Assembly: GCA_017619375.1 (NCBI GenBank)
Contig: JAFZSL010000075.1
Location: 62,001-126,000, forward strand
DNA length: 64,000 bases
Source: Prevotella sp.
Lineage (GTDB): Bacteria > Bacteroidota > Bacteroidia > Bacteroidales > Bacteroidaceae
Reading direction: 5' to 3'
A program made the translations under genes and the position numbers. Position 1 is the stretch's first letter. Each line of letters starts with the position of its first letter. The notes beneath the pieces were generated by a model. It saw nothing but the letters and a program-made list of their open reading frames with translations. It made no database searches and was not told where the DNA came from. Of this stretch, positions 5,500-58,035 are shown in pieces.

Positions 5500-7599
5500 T
5501 CAGACCGTGTATTGCTTGTTACCCGCATAGAACCTCCTTTGGGCTTCTTCCTGCCGTGGCTCGGAGAAGTTGCTCACCCGTTTGAGATATCCTATGATTC
5601 TTGTCATATAGTCGACATTTTTGGAATGGCAGTGCGGGCATTCCTTGAGGTATCGTTTGTCGATGTGTCCGCAGTCGTTGCAGATGGTGTTGGGGATGTT
5701 GAAGGTGAAATAGTTGCATCCCTCTTTTGCTGCCACCTTGAGCAGTTGCCTGTATTGCTGTTGTGTGAGGTGCTCCTCGAGATTCATATGCAGCGCCGAA
5801 CCTCCGGTGAGGTGCTCGATATAGGGTGCGCCATGCAGTTTGAACTTGTCGATGATGTTGAGGGAGTCGTCCTCCACGATGTAGAAATAACTGTTGTAGC
5901 AGTCACGCGGCACGAAATAGCCATCCTCCTTGTCCCACTTGGCGTGCTTGACACCGACATTTTCTGCCGGAATCATCTCGCAGTTGAAGAGGATGTCCTT
6001 CGAACGGTATTGCTTGTTGTATTTCTCGACCAGCCCCAGGACGCCTTGCACGAATGCGAGGTAGTCGGGGTTGTCTGTGATTTGCAGTCCCATGAATTCG
6101 GCTGCCTCGACGAGCCCGTTGACGCCGATGGTGAGGTATTGCCTTCCTATGTTGATGTATCCGGCATCGAAGAGTGGAAGCATGCCATGTTCCTTGAGTT
6201 CCTTGAGATTTTCGTTATAGGCGAGTTGCACCTTGTGGCACAGGTCGATGATTCCACCAAGGTATTCCTTGTAGTCCATGCCGTTGTTGACCGCATACTG
6301 GATGCATCTGTTGAGGTTGATGGTGAGTACGCTCTTGGAGCCGGTGGAGACGCCTCCCGCTCCGAGGGTGTAGCTGAAACCATTGTCCTGTATCTCGTTA
6401 CGGAGTCGGCAGCAGGAACTGAGGGAGTCGGCATTGTCGCTCATATAGGTGAAGAAGGAGTGCCCCTCTGCATACATCTCTGCGGTGAAGTCGCCCCATT
6501 CCTTGTCGATGACATCGCCGTCCTGGGTGAGCAGTGCCATGGTTTCCACGGGGAAGGTGAGCACGGCCTTTGTCCTCTCCTTGTTGAACCATTTCATGAA
6601 CCTTTTTTGCAGCCATGACAATCCTTCCCAGTCAGGTTGTGAACCATCGGGGAAATAGAAGTTTCCGAAAAGGCTTTCAAAATAGTATTTGTCATAATAA
6701 GCAATGTTCCAGAACACTGCTTGGTAGTTGCGCGCCCCTGTGGGTTGGTTGATGGAATAGACGATTTGTTCGAAACAGTCTGTAATCATCTTGTCGATGG
6801 TCCTTTGCTTGACGGAGAGGTCCACCACTTTGTCAGGGTTTTTCCAATAGTCGTTCCCGTATTCCAATCCAACAAAATAGTTGAGATACATGAGGAACTC
6901 CGGTGTGGCGCATGCGCCGCTGAGCATGCTGGAGACCATGAAGACCATGTTGACAAACCCGCCACAGAATGACTTGAGGTTGGTGGGGGCGGTGGAGTTG
7001 CCACCTATGGACATCGTCCCGCCGATGAGCCATGGATACATGGTGATGGATGCGCAATAGTTGGCGAGCGATGTCTCGTCGTTCTTATATATAAAGTGGT
7101 GGGTGAGCTTGTCAATGTATTCATCGGCCAGTTCCTTCCCATACATTTTCTTGATTCTGTCAGTGAGCAACCGCCTGTTGAGTCTGATGAAGCTCGACTT
7201 GGGCAGTTCGCCGATGAGGGTGGCTATGTTTTTGTGCTCCACGTTGGCGTTGGCGTCATATTTTGAACCGGTTGCGGCATTCGCTGCATCAACATAGTCT
7301 GCCAAAAATCTCAACCGCTCCATAGTCTCCCTGTCCTCAGTATGCTTCTGCCTGTAGAGCATGAACGACTTGGCAACCTTAAAGTGACCCTCTTTCATGA
7401 GAGCCTCTTCCACCATGTTCTGGATATCTTCCACGGTGATGTTGTCGGTGATGTTCAAGTGGCTGATAATCTTTGAAATAGAACCAAGATCGGCCGACTC
7501 TCCAACAGAGTGGAAAGCCTTGATGATGGCGTTCATGATCTTGTCCAACGAGAAGCGGTCGCGCTTGCCGTCGCGCTTCAAAATAGTATAATCCCTCAT
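5500..7599 (-). CDS. nrdD: Anaerobic ribonucleoside-triphosphate reductase (class III)
   Basis: This cytoplasmic glycyl-radical enzyme reduces ribonucleoside triphosphates to deoxy forms without oxygen. The 699-residue protein has an N-terminal ATP-cone (KRDGKRDRFSLDKI onward, about residues 1-95), the catalytic barrel, a C-terminal zinc site (CNDC, then CPHC) and the glycyl-radical loop RIIGYL with Gly near residue 670. The frame stays open to 7758. However, a minus-strand TATCTTTG box at 7725-7732 lies inside that extension, and the family N-terminus begins at MRDYTILKRDG, so 7599 is preferred, with a leader of about 110 nt. It heads the nrdD-nrdG-LuxR operon. Confidence 0.95.
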   Translation of the reverse strand: MRDYTILKRDGKRDRFSLDKIMNAIIKAFHSVGESADLGSISKIISHLNITDNITVEDIQNMVEEALMKEGHFKVAKSFMLYRQKHTEDRETMERLRFLADYVDAANAATGSKYDANANVEHKNIATLIGELPKSSFIRLNRRLLTDRIKKMYGKELADEYIDKLTHHFIYKNDETSLANYCASITMYPWLIGGTMSIGGNSTAPTNLKSFCGGFVNMVFMVSSMLSGACATPEFLMYLNYFVGLEYGNDYWKNPDKVVDLSVKQRTIDKMITDCFEQIVYSINQPTGARNYQAVFWNIAYYDKYYFESLFGNFYFPDGSQPDWEGLSWLQKRFMKWFNKERTKAVLTFPVETMALLTQDGDVIDKEWGDFTAEMYAEGHSFFTYMSDNADSLSSCCRLRNEIQDNGFSYTLGAGGVSTGSKSVLTINLNRCIQYAVNNGMDYKEYLGGIIDLCHKVQLAYNENLKELKEHGMLPLFDAGYINIGRQYLTIGVNGLVEAAEFMGLQITDNPDYLAFVQGVLGLVEKYNKQYRSKDILFNCEMIPAENVGVKHAKWDKEDGYFVPRDCYNSYFYIVEDDSLNIIDKFKLHGAPYIEHLTGGSALHMNLEEHLTQQQYRQLLKVAAKEGCNYFTFNIPNTICNDCGHIDKRYLKECPHCHSKNVDYMTRIIGYLKRVSNFSEPRQEEAQRRFYAGNKQYTV

Positions 7600-7724: not shown

Positions 7725-7732
7725 CAAAGATA
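7725..7732 (-). promoter_or_regulatory. nrdD promoter -7 box
   Basis: TATCTTTG on the minus strand matches the Bacteroidota -7 consensus TAnnTTTG. No clear TTTG -33 element is seen at the expected distance. Confidence 0.55.
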
Positions 7733-7920
7733 ATATTTTTATCTCTTTCGACCTTCATTTTCGATGATGAAAAAATGCGATTTAAGGAATTTTAATAATT
7801 GAAATCTCGCGCTCGCTTGGCCTTTTTTATTTATTTTTAGGTGTTGTGTTTGGGTATTAGCACATTACGCATTTCTTTCCCATTTCTCGGGAAAAATGTT
7901 TTTCTCCGAAATTAGAAGGT

Positions 7921-8050
7921 CGATGGTAGGGGAGGATGGGAGGTATCGGGATCGGGTAGGAGGTAATAGGAGGTAATAGGAGGTATTAGGAGGGAGTAGG
8001 AGATATTGGGAGAGAGTAGGAGGTGTTGGGAGAGAGTCGGAAGTATTGGG
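7921..8050 (+). repeat. Thirteen-unit 10-bp periodic purine-rich repeat array
   Basis: Thirteen consecutive 10-bp units each end in GG preceded by TA, TG or TC. The core consensus is roughly AGGAGGTATT with the last four bases TAGG or TGGG. The period is exactly 10 bp with no slippage over 130 bp, close to one helical turn. All purine-rich units are on the plus strand, between divergent nrdD and prsW and about 60 bp before the prsW promoter. Smaller arrays of the same kind occur at 4339, 19181, 28631 and 57991. Confidence 0.85.
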
Positions 8051-8110
8051 ATTTTCCTTGATTGCTATATATAAAAGAGGATGCCTCTTCGTCAAAAAAA
8101 CGGATATATA

Positions 8111-8142
8111 TTTGGTGGTATGTCTGAAAATGCATATCTTTG
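8111..8142 (+). promoter_or_regulatory. prsW promoter
   Basis: TTTG (8111-8114), a 20-bp spacer and TATCTTTG (8135-8142) match the Bacteroidota sigma-70 consensus. It places the transcript start near 8149 and rules out a protein start at 8081. Confidence 0.8.
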
Positions 8143-8191: not shown

Positions 8192-8905
8192 ATGTTGTTC
8201 TTGCTGATATTGGCCGTTCTACCTTCCATACTTCTGTTCTTGTACATTTATATGAAGGATCCCATCCCGGAACCTTTTCGGCTTTTGTTCAAGGCATTCG
8301 TTTACGGTATGGTAGCATGCATCCCCATCATCTTCGTGGAAAGCATCTTAATGCCTATCGTGTCTGCATTCGGAGAAAACGTCTTAGGCGCTACCATAAA
8401 GGCTTTCTTTGGGGCGGCGTTGCCGGAGGAAGGCTTTAAATTGCTCGCTTTATGGTTGATCTTACGGAAAAATCCCTATTATGACGAGCACTATGATGGC
8501 ATCGTCTATTCCGTGTGCGTCGGACTGGGCTTTGCCACCGTGGAAAACATAGCATATGTGATGGGCTCCGGCGATATGATGGTGGCTATCTCAAGGGCTT
8601 TCCTGGCTGTGCCTTGTCATTACGCTTGTGCCGTGTTGATGGGCTATTTTTATTCTGTCTACAATTTCGTCGACGATTCGGATCGGGTGAAATGGTCCAT
8701 TCTGTTGGCGCCGATCCTGGCCCATGGCATATACGACTCCATCGCCTTTCTTATCACAATCCTTCCTGAACTCTCAGGCGTCATCATGATTGTCCTTTGC
8801 TTCTTCTGCATCAAACTGCATCAATATTGCAAGAAGCATATCGACAAGCAACTGGCACAAGATGGGAATATACGAAAACGAAGGGACAGGGATTTGGAAG
8901 CGTAA
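8192..8905 (+). CDS. prsW: PrsW-family intramembrane metalloprotease
   Basis: A polytopic membrane protein of about 237 residues with family motifs in order: PEEGFK (Glu79, Glu80, Lys83), ENIAYV (Glu118) and VPCHYACAVLMG (His143). Together these form the presumed metal site. In Bacillus, PrsW cleaves an anti-sigma factor, but no anti-sigma gene is adjacent here, so the substrate is unknown. The promoter at 8111-8142 excludes the upstream ATG at 8081, and the Met at 8192 begins directly with the first membrane helix. It is monocistronic and is followed by a REP-like element. Confidence 0.8.
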   Translation: MLFLLILAVLPSILLFLYIYMKDPIPEPFRLLFKAFVYGMVACIPIIFVESILMPIVSAFGENVLGATIKAFFGAALPEEGFKLLALWLILRKNPYYDEHYDGIVYSVCVGLGFATVENIAYVMGSGDMMVAISRAFLAVPCHYACAVLMGYFYSVYNFVDDSDRVKWSILLAPILAHGIYDSIAFLITILPELSGVIMIVLCFFCIKLHQYCKKHIDKQLAQDGNIRKRRDRDLEA

Positions 8906-8935: not shown

Positions 8936-9039
8936 TTCGACCGCAGGTCAATCTTCAAAGTTGCGATTAAGTGAGAGCAGACCAAGCTTGCTTGTAGTCT
9001 GCCGAGCGTGAGCAACTTCGACCGTAGGTCAATCTTCAA
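8936..9039. repeat. REP-like palindrome flanked by 23-bp direct repeats
   Basis: Two 23-bp copies (8936-8958 and 9017-9039, 22 of 23 identical, both with GGTCAATCTTCAA) flank an imperfect palindrome. Its nested arms are AAGTTGC/GCAACTT (8958-8964, 9012-9018), GCAGAC/GTCTGC (8977-8982, 8997-9002) and CAAGC/GCTTG (8983-8994). No T-run follows. The direct repeats with an internal hairpin suggest a mobile REP or MITE-like unit. Confidence 0.7.
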
Positions 9040-9071
9040 TCTTCAATCTTCAATCTTCAATTTTCAATCTT
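9029..9071 (+). repeat. Heptamer tandem repeat
   Basis: About six copies of TCAATCT in tandem, one with a change to TCAATTT, extend from the second 23-bp direct repeat into the 3' end of the neighbouring minus-strand gene. This looks like slippage at the edge of the REP-like element. Confidence 0.75.
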
Positions 9072-9443
9072 TCTAAAGCAAACCATGAGCAGCAAGGCTG
9101 CCTGTATGATAAAGAGTATGGCTATCACTCCCCATCCTAAGATGTAAAACACCTTGTTATACGGGATGTCACGCTGAGGTTTGAGCCATTTCGCATACCC
9201 AAAGGCGGCTGTTGTGATGATAATCAGTCCTAATGCCTCTCTCCATGCTCTGGTAGTCCATACGAGCTCTATGATTTGGATGGCTTTGCCTGTTGCAGCA
9301 GCATATAGCACATATGCACAATTGTATAGCGCGTTTCTTGTTCGTTGGTTTTGCCTTGACTTGTCCACGCAATAAACAGCCAAGAGGATGATGGCGGCAA
9401 GGATTACCCCCTCTCTGAACAAAGGATGATAGATGAAACCCAT
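9057..9443 (-). CDS. Small membrane protein, unknown function
   Basis: A 128-residue protein with four predicted membrane helices, at about residues 8-25, 40-60, 70-85 and 97-120. The basic loops KSRQNQRTRN and KWLKPQRD lie between helices. I do not recognise the family. The C-terminal codons run into the heptamer repeat region, so the last few residues may be derived from the repeat. It is on the same strand as rny but follows it after a hairpin, so it may have its own promoter or weak read-through. Confidence 0.55.
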   Translation of the reverse strand: MGFIYHPLFREGVILAAIILLAVYCVDKSRQNQRTRNALYNCAYVLYAAATGKAIQIIELVWTTRAWREALGLIIITTAAFGYAKWLKPQRDIPYNKVFYILGWGVIAILFIIQAALLLMVCFRKIEN

Positions 9444-19144: not shown

Positions 19145-19179
19145 AACGGGAAACCTGAGAGGTTTCCCGTTGTTTTTTT
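19145..19179 (+). terminator. rng terminator
   Basis: AACGGGAAACC pairs with GGTTTCCCGTT around TGAGA, followed by seven T. This is a clear intrinsic terminator. Confidence 0.85.
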
Positions 19180-19180
19180 G

Positions 19181-19205
19181 GAGAGAGTAGGAGGTTTTAG
19201 GAGCC
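19181..19205 (+). repeat. Two to three 10-bp AGGAG units
   Basis: GGAG motifs recur every 10 bp (about 19180, 19190, 19200) between convergent rng and the C10 peptidase gene. This is the same unit and strand as the large array at 7921-8050. Confidence 0.5.
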
Positions 19206-19206
19206 T

Positions 19207-21252
19207 TTATGGCTTGACCAACCTTTTCCCATCCTTGGAGACGATGACGCCATGGTGTGAGGCCCCGTGCTTCAATCTCCTCCCTTGAAGGTCGTAGGAT
19301 TGCGCTGGCACCTGTGCCGGGGTGGTGTTCTCCGCCTCGTCGATGCCATCCTCCAAATTGGCGTCGAATTCCTTGATGTTCCGCCCGTATTCTTTCCATC
19401 CCTTGGCGTTGCGATAGGTTTGCTTGGTGCCTCTTGGCACGTAGAGTGTGCGCAAGGAGATGTCAAGTGGGTCGATGGCCGTCGCGTCAATGGCGGGCGG
19501 TGTCGTGGCGTTGACATAGGTTTTGATGAGGTCGAAGCACCTGTTGAATGCGAACGCCCCTATGGAATCGACGCTATTGGGCAGGGTAATCCTTTCATAG
19601 AGGAACCTCCCTGCAAAGGCATAGGGGTGCACCACCTTCACGCCGTTGGGCACTACGTAGTCCAGGTCGTCGCCCATTCCGGGCAAGCATTCTATCAATT
19701 CGTCTCGCTCCTTGTTCATCACGAAACTCCCTTCCACGATGAAATCGCTCTCCTCGACAGCCTTCAGGTATACACGGTCGAGGTTGTTGCATCCGGCGAA
19801 CACGCCGTCGCCATACCCCAGGAGCAGGTCGGGCAGGGTGACATCGACAAGGAAGGTGCAGTTGGCAAATGCCTTGTCAGGCATCACGTCGTCGTCGGTG
19901 ATACAGAGGCTGTCGTCCTCGATGAGGAAGGGTTCTCCTCCCTTCACCACACGTGCCTCGGCAAGGTTGAGCACGGACAAGTTGCCAAAGGCGACCTTTC
20001 CGTCCACATCCCTTCCAGCCATTTGGCGAAGCGTCCGCAAGTCGGTGCTGTTGATGCTTCCTTTCACTTTCAGGCACACGATGGAGTCGCGTTGCTCGGC
20101 GAGGATTTCGTCCAGCGTTCCCGGTGTTTCCACCGTCACTTCGACGGTGTCGGCTTCCAACCATTCCGGCGTGCACCTCACCACCAAGTCTTGGTAATAC
20201 CTGAAATCATAGAATCCATAATACACCAATAGTGAAGCGAGATTGAAATATCCGTCTTCTGATCCTCCCCATCCCCAGTTGATGTAGATGTACCCATTTT
20301 TGTTGTATCCATTCAGCACGAACTCGTGACCACTGTAACTTTCATCAGACCCACCGTAGATGATGGGGATTCCCCGGCTGATATGGTCGAAGATGATGTT
20401 CATCCATTGGGTGTCGGTATAGTCTTTTTTGTCTATGGTGACCGCAAAGGGGTACCTGAGGTTGTTGCGCAGTCCGTAGCATAAGGTTTCATTGTAGGCT
20501 CCAGTGCCGTTGTAATCATATACGGCTTTCATGGCCAACCCCACATGATACATGAGTTTGGCCACCGCCTTCTTTCTCGCTTGGTTGCCTCTTGGAAATG
20601 GTCCTTCTTCTTCGTAATATTCATTCAGCATCAAATTGTAATCAAACGAGTCATTGTCGAGAACCGCCTCAAGCCGCTCGCCGTTGAAATCAGCGAACGG
20701 GAAATAGGTGAATACGGTGCCGGTGCCATGGTCGGGCCATTCGAAATACTTGAGCACTTGGGCTGTAGCCGTCGCCACGCATCCTGTGGGGCAATAGTTG
20801 GGGCAAAGGTCGTTATATGGCTCCGACTGATCCCATAGCGTCTTCAGCAGCGGTGCCACCCTTTCAGGATATCCCAACGATTCAGGTGTCACTTGGCTGA
20901 GCAGCGGGGCGTTGGCAGGGTCGGCCGTCACCTTGTCCACCACATCGAGCCACCATTTGAAATGGGGGTTGGTGGTCTCGGAATCATATGCTGTCTCCGA
21001 CCACCCCATCACTTCGGGAAAGGCGTCGTCGGTGGTGACAACGGCAAAGCCGCCATTGTCATAGCCCATGACCGCTACGCCTTCGCGCATTTCTTGCATT
21101 TGCAGGTCGCCCACGAGCCGTTTGCCGGCAAGGCGCCCCTCCACAGCCAGCACTTTGGCTGCTGCGGATTTCATATCCTCCACTGTCCTGGGATTGGACC
21201 AAGCATAAGACGCCACGGTGGCCAAGACAGTGAGCAAAATAGTTTTCCTCAT
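19207..21252 (-). CDS. Secreted C10 (streptopain-like) cysteine protease with BspA-type LRRs
   Basis: A 681-residue exported protease. A signal peptide (residues 1-19) precedes a propeptide and the C10 catalytic domain, with Cys158 in CPTGCVATATAQ, His309 in GHEFVLNGYN and Trp326 in INWGWGG. The Cys-His spacing is close to that of streptococcal SpeB. From about residue 430 there are BspA-type leucine-rich repeats (for example FANCTFLVDVTLPD). The C-terminus has SYDLQGRRL and VIVSKDGKRLVKP, a tail common on Prevotella secreted proteins. The family includes the Prevotella protease interpain. The AlaX-like gene lies 21 bp upstream on the same strand. Confidence 0.9.
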   Translation of the reverse strand: MRKTILLTVLATVASYAWSNPRTVEDMKSAAAKVLAVEGRLAGKRLVGDLQMQEMREGVAVMGYDNGGFAVVTTDDAFPEVMGWSETAYDSETTNPHFKWWLDVVDKVTADPANAPLLSQVTPESLGYPERVAPLLKTLWDQSEPYNDLCPNYCPTGCVATATAQVLKYFEWPDHGTGTVFTYFPFADFNGERLEAVLDNDSFDYNLMLNEYYEEEGPFPRGNQARKKAVAKLMYHVGLAMKAVYDYNGTGAYNETLCYGLRNNLRYPFAVTIDKKDYTDTQWMNIIFDHISRGIPIIYGGSDESYSGHEFVLNGYNKNGYIYINWGWGGSEDGYFNLASLLVYYGFYDFRYYQDLVVRCTPEWLEADTVEVTVETPGTLDEILAEQRDSIVCLKVKGSINSTDLRTLRQMAGRDVDGKVAFGNLSVLNLAEARVVKGGEPFLIEDDSLCITDDDVMPDKAFANCTFLVDVTLPDLLLGYGDGVFAGCNNLDRVYLKAVEESDFIVEGSFVMNKERDELIECLPGMGDDLDYVVPNGVKVVHPYAFAGRFLYERITLPNSVDSIGAFAFNRCFDLIKTYVNATTPPAIDATAIDPLDISLRTLYVPRGTKQTYRNAKGWKEYGRNIKEFDANLEDGIDEAENTTPAQVPAQSYDLQGRRLKHGASHHGVIVSKDGKRLVKP

Positions 21253-28630: not shown

Positions 28631-28680
28631 TTTTAGGAGAAAATCAGGAGGTTTTAGGAGCAAGTAGGAGGTTTTAGGAA
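28631..28680 (+). repeat. Five-unit 10-bp AGGAG repeat array
   Basis: Five units with AGGAG or AGGAA every 10 bp, with T-rich or CAAGT linkers, lie directly after the apgM-like gene stop and before a convergent gene. Unit and orientation match the 7921-8050 array. Confidence 0.75.
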
Positions 28681-28691
28681 GACTTTTCTTC

Positions 28692-57990: not shown

Positions 57991-58035
57991 TAGGAGATAA
58001 TGGGAGATTATAGGAGGTTGTAGGACCTCCTGGGG
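57991..58035 (+). repeat. 10-bp AGGAG repeat array inside the gcv operon
   Basis: Units at 57991, 58001, 58011, 58021 and 58031 all begin TAGGA or TGGG, exactly 10 bp apart, in the gcvT-gcvH gap. AGGAGGT (58012-58018) can also pair with ACCTCCT (58025-58031) as a hairpin. Orientation is the same as in the other arrays, so here it is antisense to the operon. Confidence 0.7.

Follow-up and report, generated by a model that had tools for sequence, protein, structure and literature searches.

Intergenic arrays of a TAGGA core at 10-bp spacing in a Prevotella genome and some of its relatives

The tandem array between the divergent nrdD and prsW genes of this Prevotella sp. is one member of a dispersed intergenic family of spaced-core arrays, in which TAGGA(G), a core of 5-6 bp, is repeated at 10-bp intervals with a variable linker of 4-5 bp in between. 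The family is characterized by its spacing, its kept core, its placement between genes and its patchy spread, and in three related genomes the arrays also follow a rule of orientation relative to the neighboring genes. What remains as an explanation is recognition of the core, whether by a putative binding protein that benefits the host or by a process that spreads the arrays; a sequence-specific host factor is tentatively preferred. No report of a TAGGA spaced-core family was found in the literature searched, which included a minority of subscription papers and preprints. Throughout, the window denotes the whole 64,000-nucleotide stretch that was analyzed, the home genome is that of this Prevotella sp., and labels beginning with G and L denote other genomes and the loci examined, respectively.

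The nrdD-prsW array and its family in the home genome

The initial annotation had described a single array of 13 AGGAG-type units with an exact 10-bp period, lying between divergent nrdD and prsW genes and next to a clear promoter. The array is confirmed, all 13 units falling in a single 10-bp register, and it is joined in the window by three shorter arrays on the same strand (Table 1). GG occupies unit positions 3-4 in 13/13 units, and the exact hexamer TAGGAG is present in six of them (7957, 7967, 7977, 7987, 7997 and 8017). The longest chain of GGAG at a step of 10 has 8 members in the window, whereas 200 shuffles of the entire window that preserved dinucleotides gave longest chains of 1-3, and chains of more than 2 were found on the plus strand only at steps 10, 20 and 30 when steps from 5 to 30 were scanned. 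The identity and divergence of the flanking genes are borne out by Pfam matches; the longest open reading frame of nrdD starts at 7758, from which the codon-usage script also called the gene, and the more likely start is given in Table 1. The promoter part of the description holds only partly: the element before prsW that is also found in a relative is TATCTTTG, and it lies 78 bp beyond the end of the array. The designation of TATCTTTG as a -7 element depends on the pattern TAnnTTTG, which we take to be the promoter consensus, and if nrdD starts at its likely position the array is flanked by this motif on both sides.

Table 1. Features of the window discussed in the text, with coordinates in the window
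Feature	Position	Strand	Context or basis
13-unit 10-bp spaced-core array	7927-8056	+	divergent nrdD/prsW intergenic region
nrdD, anaerobic ribonucleotide reductase	5500-7599	-	Pfam; likely start, inferred
prsW-family intramembrane metalloprotease	8192-8905	+	Pfam; likely start
TATCTTTG, likely -7 element of prsW	8135-8142	+	TAnnTTTG-type; also in G053 orthologue
TATCTTTG, likely -7 element of nrdD	7725-7732	-	TAnnTTTG-type; also in G053
3-unit array	19178-19207	+	between convergent genes
4-unit array	28645-28684	+	between convergent genes
4-unit array	57991-58030	+	short spacer between two minus-strand genes

The three-unit array is preceded by what appears by eye to be a terminator-like hairpin with a T tract and is adjoined by the stop codon of the gene to its right; an array of the same relative orientation occupies the orthologous place in G053 (L194). 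The first of the four-unit arrays ends in an inverted repeat, TTAGGAAGA..TCTTCCTAA, also recognized by eye, and the second presents CTCCTA on the mRNA sense. Elsewhere in the window (9029-9071), about six copies of the heptamer TCAATCT lie at the 3' end of a small minus-strand open reading frame (9057-9443).

Across the home genome, three phased TAGGAG motifs (up to 2 mismatches) were matched 94 times on the forward strand and 71 times on the reverse strand, overlapping matches being counted, and the reversed pattern was matched 0 and 2 times. Merging of matches yielded at least 40 arrays in the window and 37 further stretches, which are the basis of all analyses of home arrays; several weaker places listed for this genome lie outside that set. 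Among 100 listed pairs of TAGGAG up to 36 bp apart, 84 are separated by multiples of 10 bp (72 by 10 itself), 4 by 9 bp and 2 by 11 bp. The spacing is thus 10 bp and not a mixture of 10 and 11 bp. Two 10-bp steps account for the length of 125 of the 150 triples listed from other array-rich genomes (counted by eye in 6 of 15 genomes); one of these six, G502, mixes spacings of 9 and 10 bp (17 of 29).

Core, linker and distribution among relatives

When free units (those flanked on both sides by exact TAGGA neighbors) are considered, positions 1-5 carry 1.46-2.00 bits of information in all four genomes (n = 86, 166, 69 and 46), and linker positions carry 0.08-0.62 bits, the exceptions being position 6 in the home genome (1.16) and positions 9-10 in G065 (0.95 and 1.81), where the core reads CCTAGGA. 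Units of the home genome have G at position 4 in 86/86 cases and A at position 5 in 77/86. The two G that follow TAGGA are less well kept (71/86 and 55/86 home units) and are not kept in G065. The likeness to a Shine-Dalgarno sequence therefore falls on bases that are less well conserved, and the initial description of the repeat as an anti-Shine-Dalgarno complement is not supported. Position 5 is itself not strict, because many home units read TAGGT: among 228 pair starts at the home loci examined, 152 have A and 73 have T. A second test, aimed at lowering seed bias, fixed units 1, 2, 4 and 5 and scored unit 3, which was exact TAGGA in 138 of 150 listed rows (home genome 19/22, G508 95/99, G627 16/17, G357 8/12); these rows require exact neighbors, represent four of the six genomes searched, and overlap within arrays, so that they are not independent. 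Identical coordinates show that the genomes labeled G357 and G508 are those also labeled G052 and G053. As all arrays were located with TAGGA seeds, families with other cores are missed and some seed bias may remain. In the home rows the core is 97.3% identical per base and position 6 95%, and linker positions 7-10 are 38-54% identical among units; in the G508 rows the core reaches 99.0% and the linkers 57-68%, a smaller contrast than in the home genome.

In the home genome the linkers tend to alternate between two classes, producing a 20-bp super-period (59/110 changes, a value reached by 0/1000 within-array shuffles). The same alternation is seen in G052 (reached by 2/1000 shuffles), weakly in G053 (25/1000) and not in G065 (918/1000). 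Mismatch between the linkers of adjacent units is 50-62% across all gene contexts in the home genome, G053 and G052.

At least one exact triple is present in 67 of the 398 genomes of a genus sample (home genome included) and at least 10 in 27, and 331 have none; array matches number dozens to hundreds in some relatives. In a sample of the order, exact triples occur in 10 of 295 genomes, again including the home genome. Of 106 stretches matched in a scan of named genomes, 80 were listed, and at least 46 are titled Prevotella, Prevotellaceae or other Bacteroidales/Bacteroidetes, the remainder of those listed including Pseudomonas and other unrelated taxa; a further 17 stretches with exact triples come from a viral collection. 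The initial annotation had made the significance of the array depend on its presence in close relatives and on the pattern being commoner than expected. This test gives a split result: at the orthologous locus of the close relative G053 the array is missing despite the presence of TATCTTTG on either side, but the home genome contains the pattern far more often than its reversed control.

Judged by the flanking proteins, the home genome shares 8 array loci with G053 and 6 with G052 (raw counts). At the 10 distinct orthologous loci compared, copy number and linkers differ and the core is kept. Six loci (L039, L060, L044, L052, the window array at 19178, and L049) preserve the relative orientation and one (L033/L250) reverses it; the inverted arrays at the other three (L038, L035 and L057) do not lend themselves to a straightforward comparison. 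In each of the three genomes a single base separates the end of the L039 array from the start codon, and the difference among L060, L186 and L245 looks by eye like expansion by a 20-bp step.

Several other repeats were encountered. At the nrdD-prsW locus of G053 (L258, ~2340-2560), a different repeat (around cgacgcctcc and cctcttgcc) stands in place of the home array. In several spacers (L033, L182, L186, L188, L195, L210, L211) the TAGGAG-type units often follow a second repeat of 9-10 bp, of the CTAGTTTTCCTAG / CTAGTATTCCTAG type, and one array type seems to grade into the other. In the genus sample, G404 has no TAGGA triples and 9+1 matches to the reversed pattern, which consist of AGGAT every 10 bp; this is perhaps another species with another core. 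G258, which belongs to another family within the order, has 32 matches; those whose places were listed consist of TAGGAACTCA-like units and fall on several contigs. The Pseudomonas loci (L064, L077, L078, L091, L101, L111, L112, L117, L127, L130) contain direct repeats like TAGGAGCTGG or TAGGAGCCTG that adjoin a shared cgaggctgcgatcttt sequence, and represent a different repeat type.

Gene context and orientation

Gene context was assessed with genes called by our own codon-usage script, which gives approximate starts. The sample from G053 comprised 40 regions (45 of 49 arrays, picked from at least 100 listed places), that from G052 20 of 24 arrays picked among the matches listed, and that from G065 20 regions out of at least ~40 arrays listed. 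The arrays are intergenic, a single home array lying within a called gene. Among 124 arrays found in the home genome, G053 and G052, the 101 that are non-inverted and have two flanking genes were kept, and these comprise 34 in convergent, 12 in divergent and 55 in tandem contexts. Gene 3' ends lie within 60 bp of an array far more often than gene 5' ends (113 versus 33 in the same three genomes).

The orientation tests were confined to non-inverted arrays outside genes, and the promoter-dependence count additionally to arrays away from contig edges. Between tandem genes, the TAGGA strand is opposite to the genes in 43 cases and the same in 12 (p 3e-5), the bias being present in each genome (opposite:same, home genome 11:5, G053 21:4, G052 11:3). 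Close to the following gene it is 26 opposite to 1 same (tandem arrays within 60 bp of the next start), and the start-side count within 60 bp is 29 to 2. In G065 the tandem bias is absent (3 opposite, 6 same), and a first tandem count over mixed Bacteroidota loci, which pools several unit types and short contigs, was weak (20 opposite, 16 same) and carries no weight here. The bias depends on an intervening promoter motif: in the three genomes, spacers without TAnnTTTG between array and start carry UCCUA-sense and UAGGA-sense arrays in a ratio of 33:4, compared with 18:18 where the motif is present (Fisher p 3e-4). Several operon spacers (e.g., L039, L044, L178, L200) are nearly filled by the array. 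Replication-strand polarity was considered by way of the local GC skew at each array, which seems tied to gene direction, as judged on unordered contigs. Avoidance of Shine-Dalgarno sequences was considered as the cause of the orientation rule and rejected. In the 35 bases before the starts of 201 array-less home genes, AGGAG occurs 11 times and CTCCT 3 times; since AGGAG is not the rarer of the two, the rule cannot be put down to avoidance of AGGAG before genes in general. The corresponding counts were 3 versus 5 in G053 (117 genes), 0 versus 2 in G052 (53) and 0 and 0 in G065 (64).

At gene 3' ends both orientations are common (60 same-strand and 90 opposite-strand gene-array pairs in the three genomes, inverted arrays included). 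Where an array within 60 bp lies on the coding strand, its first TAG is often the stop codon of the gene, as found in 7/16 cases in the home genome, 5/22 in G053, 3/9 in G052 and 2/14 in G065 (17/61 over the four genomes). Some spacers contain facing arrays (TAGGAG and then CTCCTA) that could form a long hairpin (L038, L048, L057, L180, L208, L238).

The arrays between divergent genes probably lie outside mRNAs, because 10 of the 12 have the TAnnTTTG motif on both sides. Core mismatches are as rare there (5/165, 3.0%) as in convergent contexts (13/385, 3.4%), and since the core is kept in divergent arrays, its constraint does not seem to require transcription. In opposite-strand tandem arrays, mismatches number 6/360 (1.7%) where no promoter motif is present and 8/100 where one is; same-strand tandem arrays have 0/55 and 0/20. 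Linker mismatch in the divergent, convergent and promoter-less opposite-strand tandem arrays is 54-62%.

Known repeats and explanations for the kept core

Cyanobacterial STRR heptamers form dispersed short tandem arrays between genes; they resemble the TAGGA family in their dispersed intergenic occurrence and differ in that, as they are generally known, the heptamers are contiguous. Repetition of a whole unit, as in STRR or TAACTGA arrays, was not found here, given the low identity of home linker positions 7-10. The GGGNATC heptamers of Xanthomonas and Nostoc (Rehm et al. 2015, PMC4692102) form many intergenic arrays, with four units preferred; arrays no more than 50 bp from a start are mostly on the non-coding strand, and those equally close to a stop mostly on the coding strand (including overlap with stop codons). 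They are under-represented between divergent genes and in general show no tie to mobile elements. TAGGA arrays share with them short G-rich units, numerous intergenic arrays, scarcity between divergent genes, a general lack of ties to mobile elements and a similar placement rule, which agrees on the start side. They differ in a period of 10 bp instead of a contiguous 7-bp unit, in keeping only 5-6 letters beside a variable linker, in having no conserved GGG (position 5 being mostly A in the home genome), and in a mixed stop side, where opposite-strand arrays are also common. The TAACTGA heptamers, directly repeated in Beggiatoaceae, Cyanobacteria and a few Bacteroidetes, likewise form many, mostly intergenic arrays of patchy phylogeny, just before starts or over stop codons, with stop codons in all three frames of one orientation (MacGregor 2015, PMC4679880). 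Their 7-bp unit has no linker and is mostly forward to the start in the main genome described there, whereas here the core is spaced and TAGGA is antisense to the following gene in operon spacers. Both heptamer families repeat a whole heptamer and neither is a spaced core. The BrickBuilt MITE minisatellite of Porphyromonas gingivalis (Klein et al. 2015, PMC4596501) is also an intergenic tandem repeat family in a Bacteroidales genome, but its 23-nt units follow one another without spacers, and it has leader and tail subunits as well as ends that form inverted repeats. No leader or tail is common to the TAGGA arrays, whose flanks, compared by eye, are different at each array and extend into the ends of genes.

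A combination of kept core and variable linker is not what a plain neutral minisatellite would be expected to produce. Slippage of 10-bp units is compatible with the intergenic placement, the change in copy number between relatives and the fairly uniform linkers of G508, but unconstrained units would lose core and linker alike, and the explanation is therefore very unlikely. The initial view that the array is not random slippage thus fits the data, and so does the suggestion of a protein-binding platform, although the protein itself is putative. The accompanying claim of exact helical phasing is weakly supported at best. Selection for bending or wrapping of the DNA, with a purine tract on every helical turn, would agree with the strict 10-bp period and, in the home genome, with the alternation of G-rich core and more A/T-rich linker, yet a bend would tolerate the 11-bp steps that are almost absent. 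For 13 units at a 10-bp step the vector sum reaches 0.90 if a turn measures 10.2 bp, but only 0.48 if it measures 10.5 bp. Phased A-tracts are absent as well (the only A/T tract of at least 4 in 7928-8056 lies at 8051, at the end of the array), and selection on composition alone would not preserve TAGGA letter by letter; little speaks for a bend, which is as improbable as the minisatellite. Even less can be expected of an array of sites for a BREX-type methyltransferase. TAGGAG is identical in all six letters to the methylation site of Bacillus cereus BREX, the adenine at position 5 being the methylated base (PMC6326788). However, position 5 is often T in home pair starts, and G065 keeps CCTAGGA instead. 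A BREX system would also call for a PglX gene; a motif scan of 339 kb of home DNA (~8% of the genome) found one NPPY-type protein, of 540 aa. An element acting at the RNA level is unlikely but deserves more weight than these. Once transcribed, the array might load Rho (UCCUA, G-poor, at 10-nt intervals) or be bound by an RNA-binding protein, and so act in operon spacers and at 3' ends, in line with the tandem bias and its dependence on promoter motifs. Against it, a terminator located 1-60 bp ahead of a start codon would shut off the gene that follows, both orientations are common at 3' ends, and divergent arrays keep the core equally well. Rho loading in particular fits poorly because arrays lie in spacers a few bases before start codons; first suggested by the tandem bias, it was demoted, as the strict bias lies inside operon spacers lacking the promoter motif and 3' ends carry both orientations.

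Two explanations in which the core itself is recognized carry most of the weight. Molecular drive without benefit to the host, in which core-primed strand misalignment or template switching would renew the arrays, broken cores would fail to spread and linkers would be reshuffled from a pool, is a realistic possibility. Turnover at orthologous loci (including the apparent 20-bp step), the alternation of linker classes and the patchy spread all favor it, but slippage would copy linkers too, yet adjacent linkers differ at about half or more of their positions, and 5-6 bp of priming seems short for such events. The leading explanation, held tentatively and with considerable reservation, is that the core is kept by a sequence-specific host factor that recognizes it in DNA, with one site per repeat, and that the arrays turn over. 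The main reason for preferring a factor acting on DNA is that the constraint on the core does not seem to need transcription, and this explanation is ranked slightly above molecular drive because adjacent linkers are too different for copying alone. The factor would most likely be a DNA-binding protein occupying successive repeats along the array. Arrays would grow and shrink, probably in 10- or 20-bp steps, and would persist where they do little harm, between terminators and promoters and at 3' ends, those in operon spacers settling mainly with UCCUA on the mRNA. The patchy distribution pulls toward molecular drive and against a host factor, the absence of exact triples from most congeners being odd for an important host function. 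The missing nrdD-prsW array in G053, the smaller contrast between core and linker in G508, the lower share of exact free units in G357, the core mismatches in promoter-bearing opposite-strand tandem arrays, the common TAGGT and the lack of tandem bias in G065 likewise count against it.

On a more speculative and rather doubtful extension of the host-factor explanation, a lineage-restricted putative DNA-binding protein of some Prevotellaceae would read a TAGGA in each 10 bp and coat the arrays at intergenic sites that number from dozens to hundreds. This would constitute an undescribed chromosome-wide system of polar sites, acting in insulation, supercoil control or nucleoid order, in which related species use the same core and spacing with different linkers. 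Intergenic tandem arrays of bacteria are easily written off as products of slippage, and core letters kept genome-wide between drifting spacers make the function of such arrays testable. Because unrelated G-rich repeats in Xanthomonas and Nostoc follow a similar orientation rule, there may be a general limit on which sequences can be transcribed immediately ahead of a start codon.
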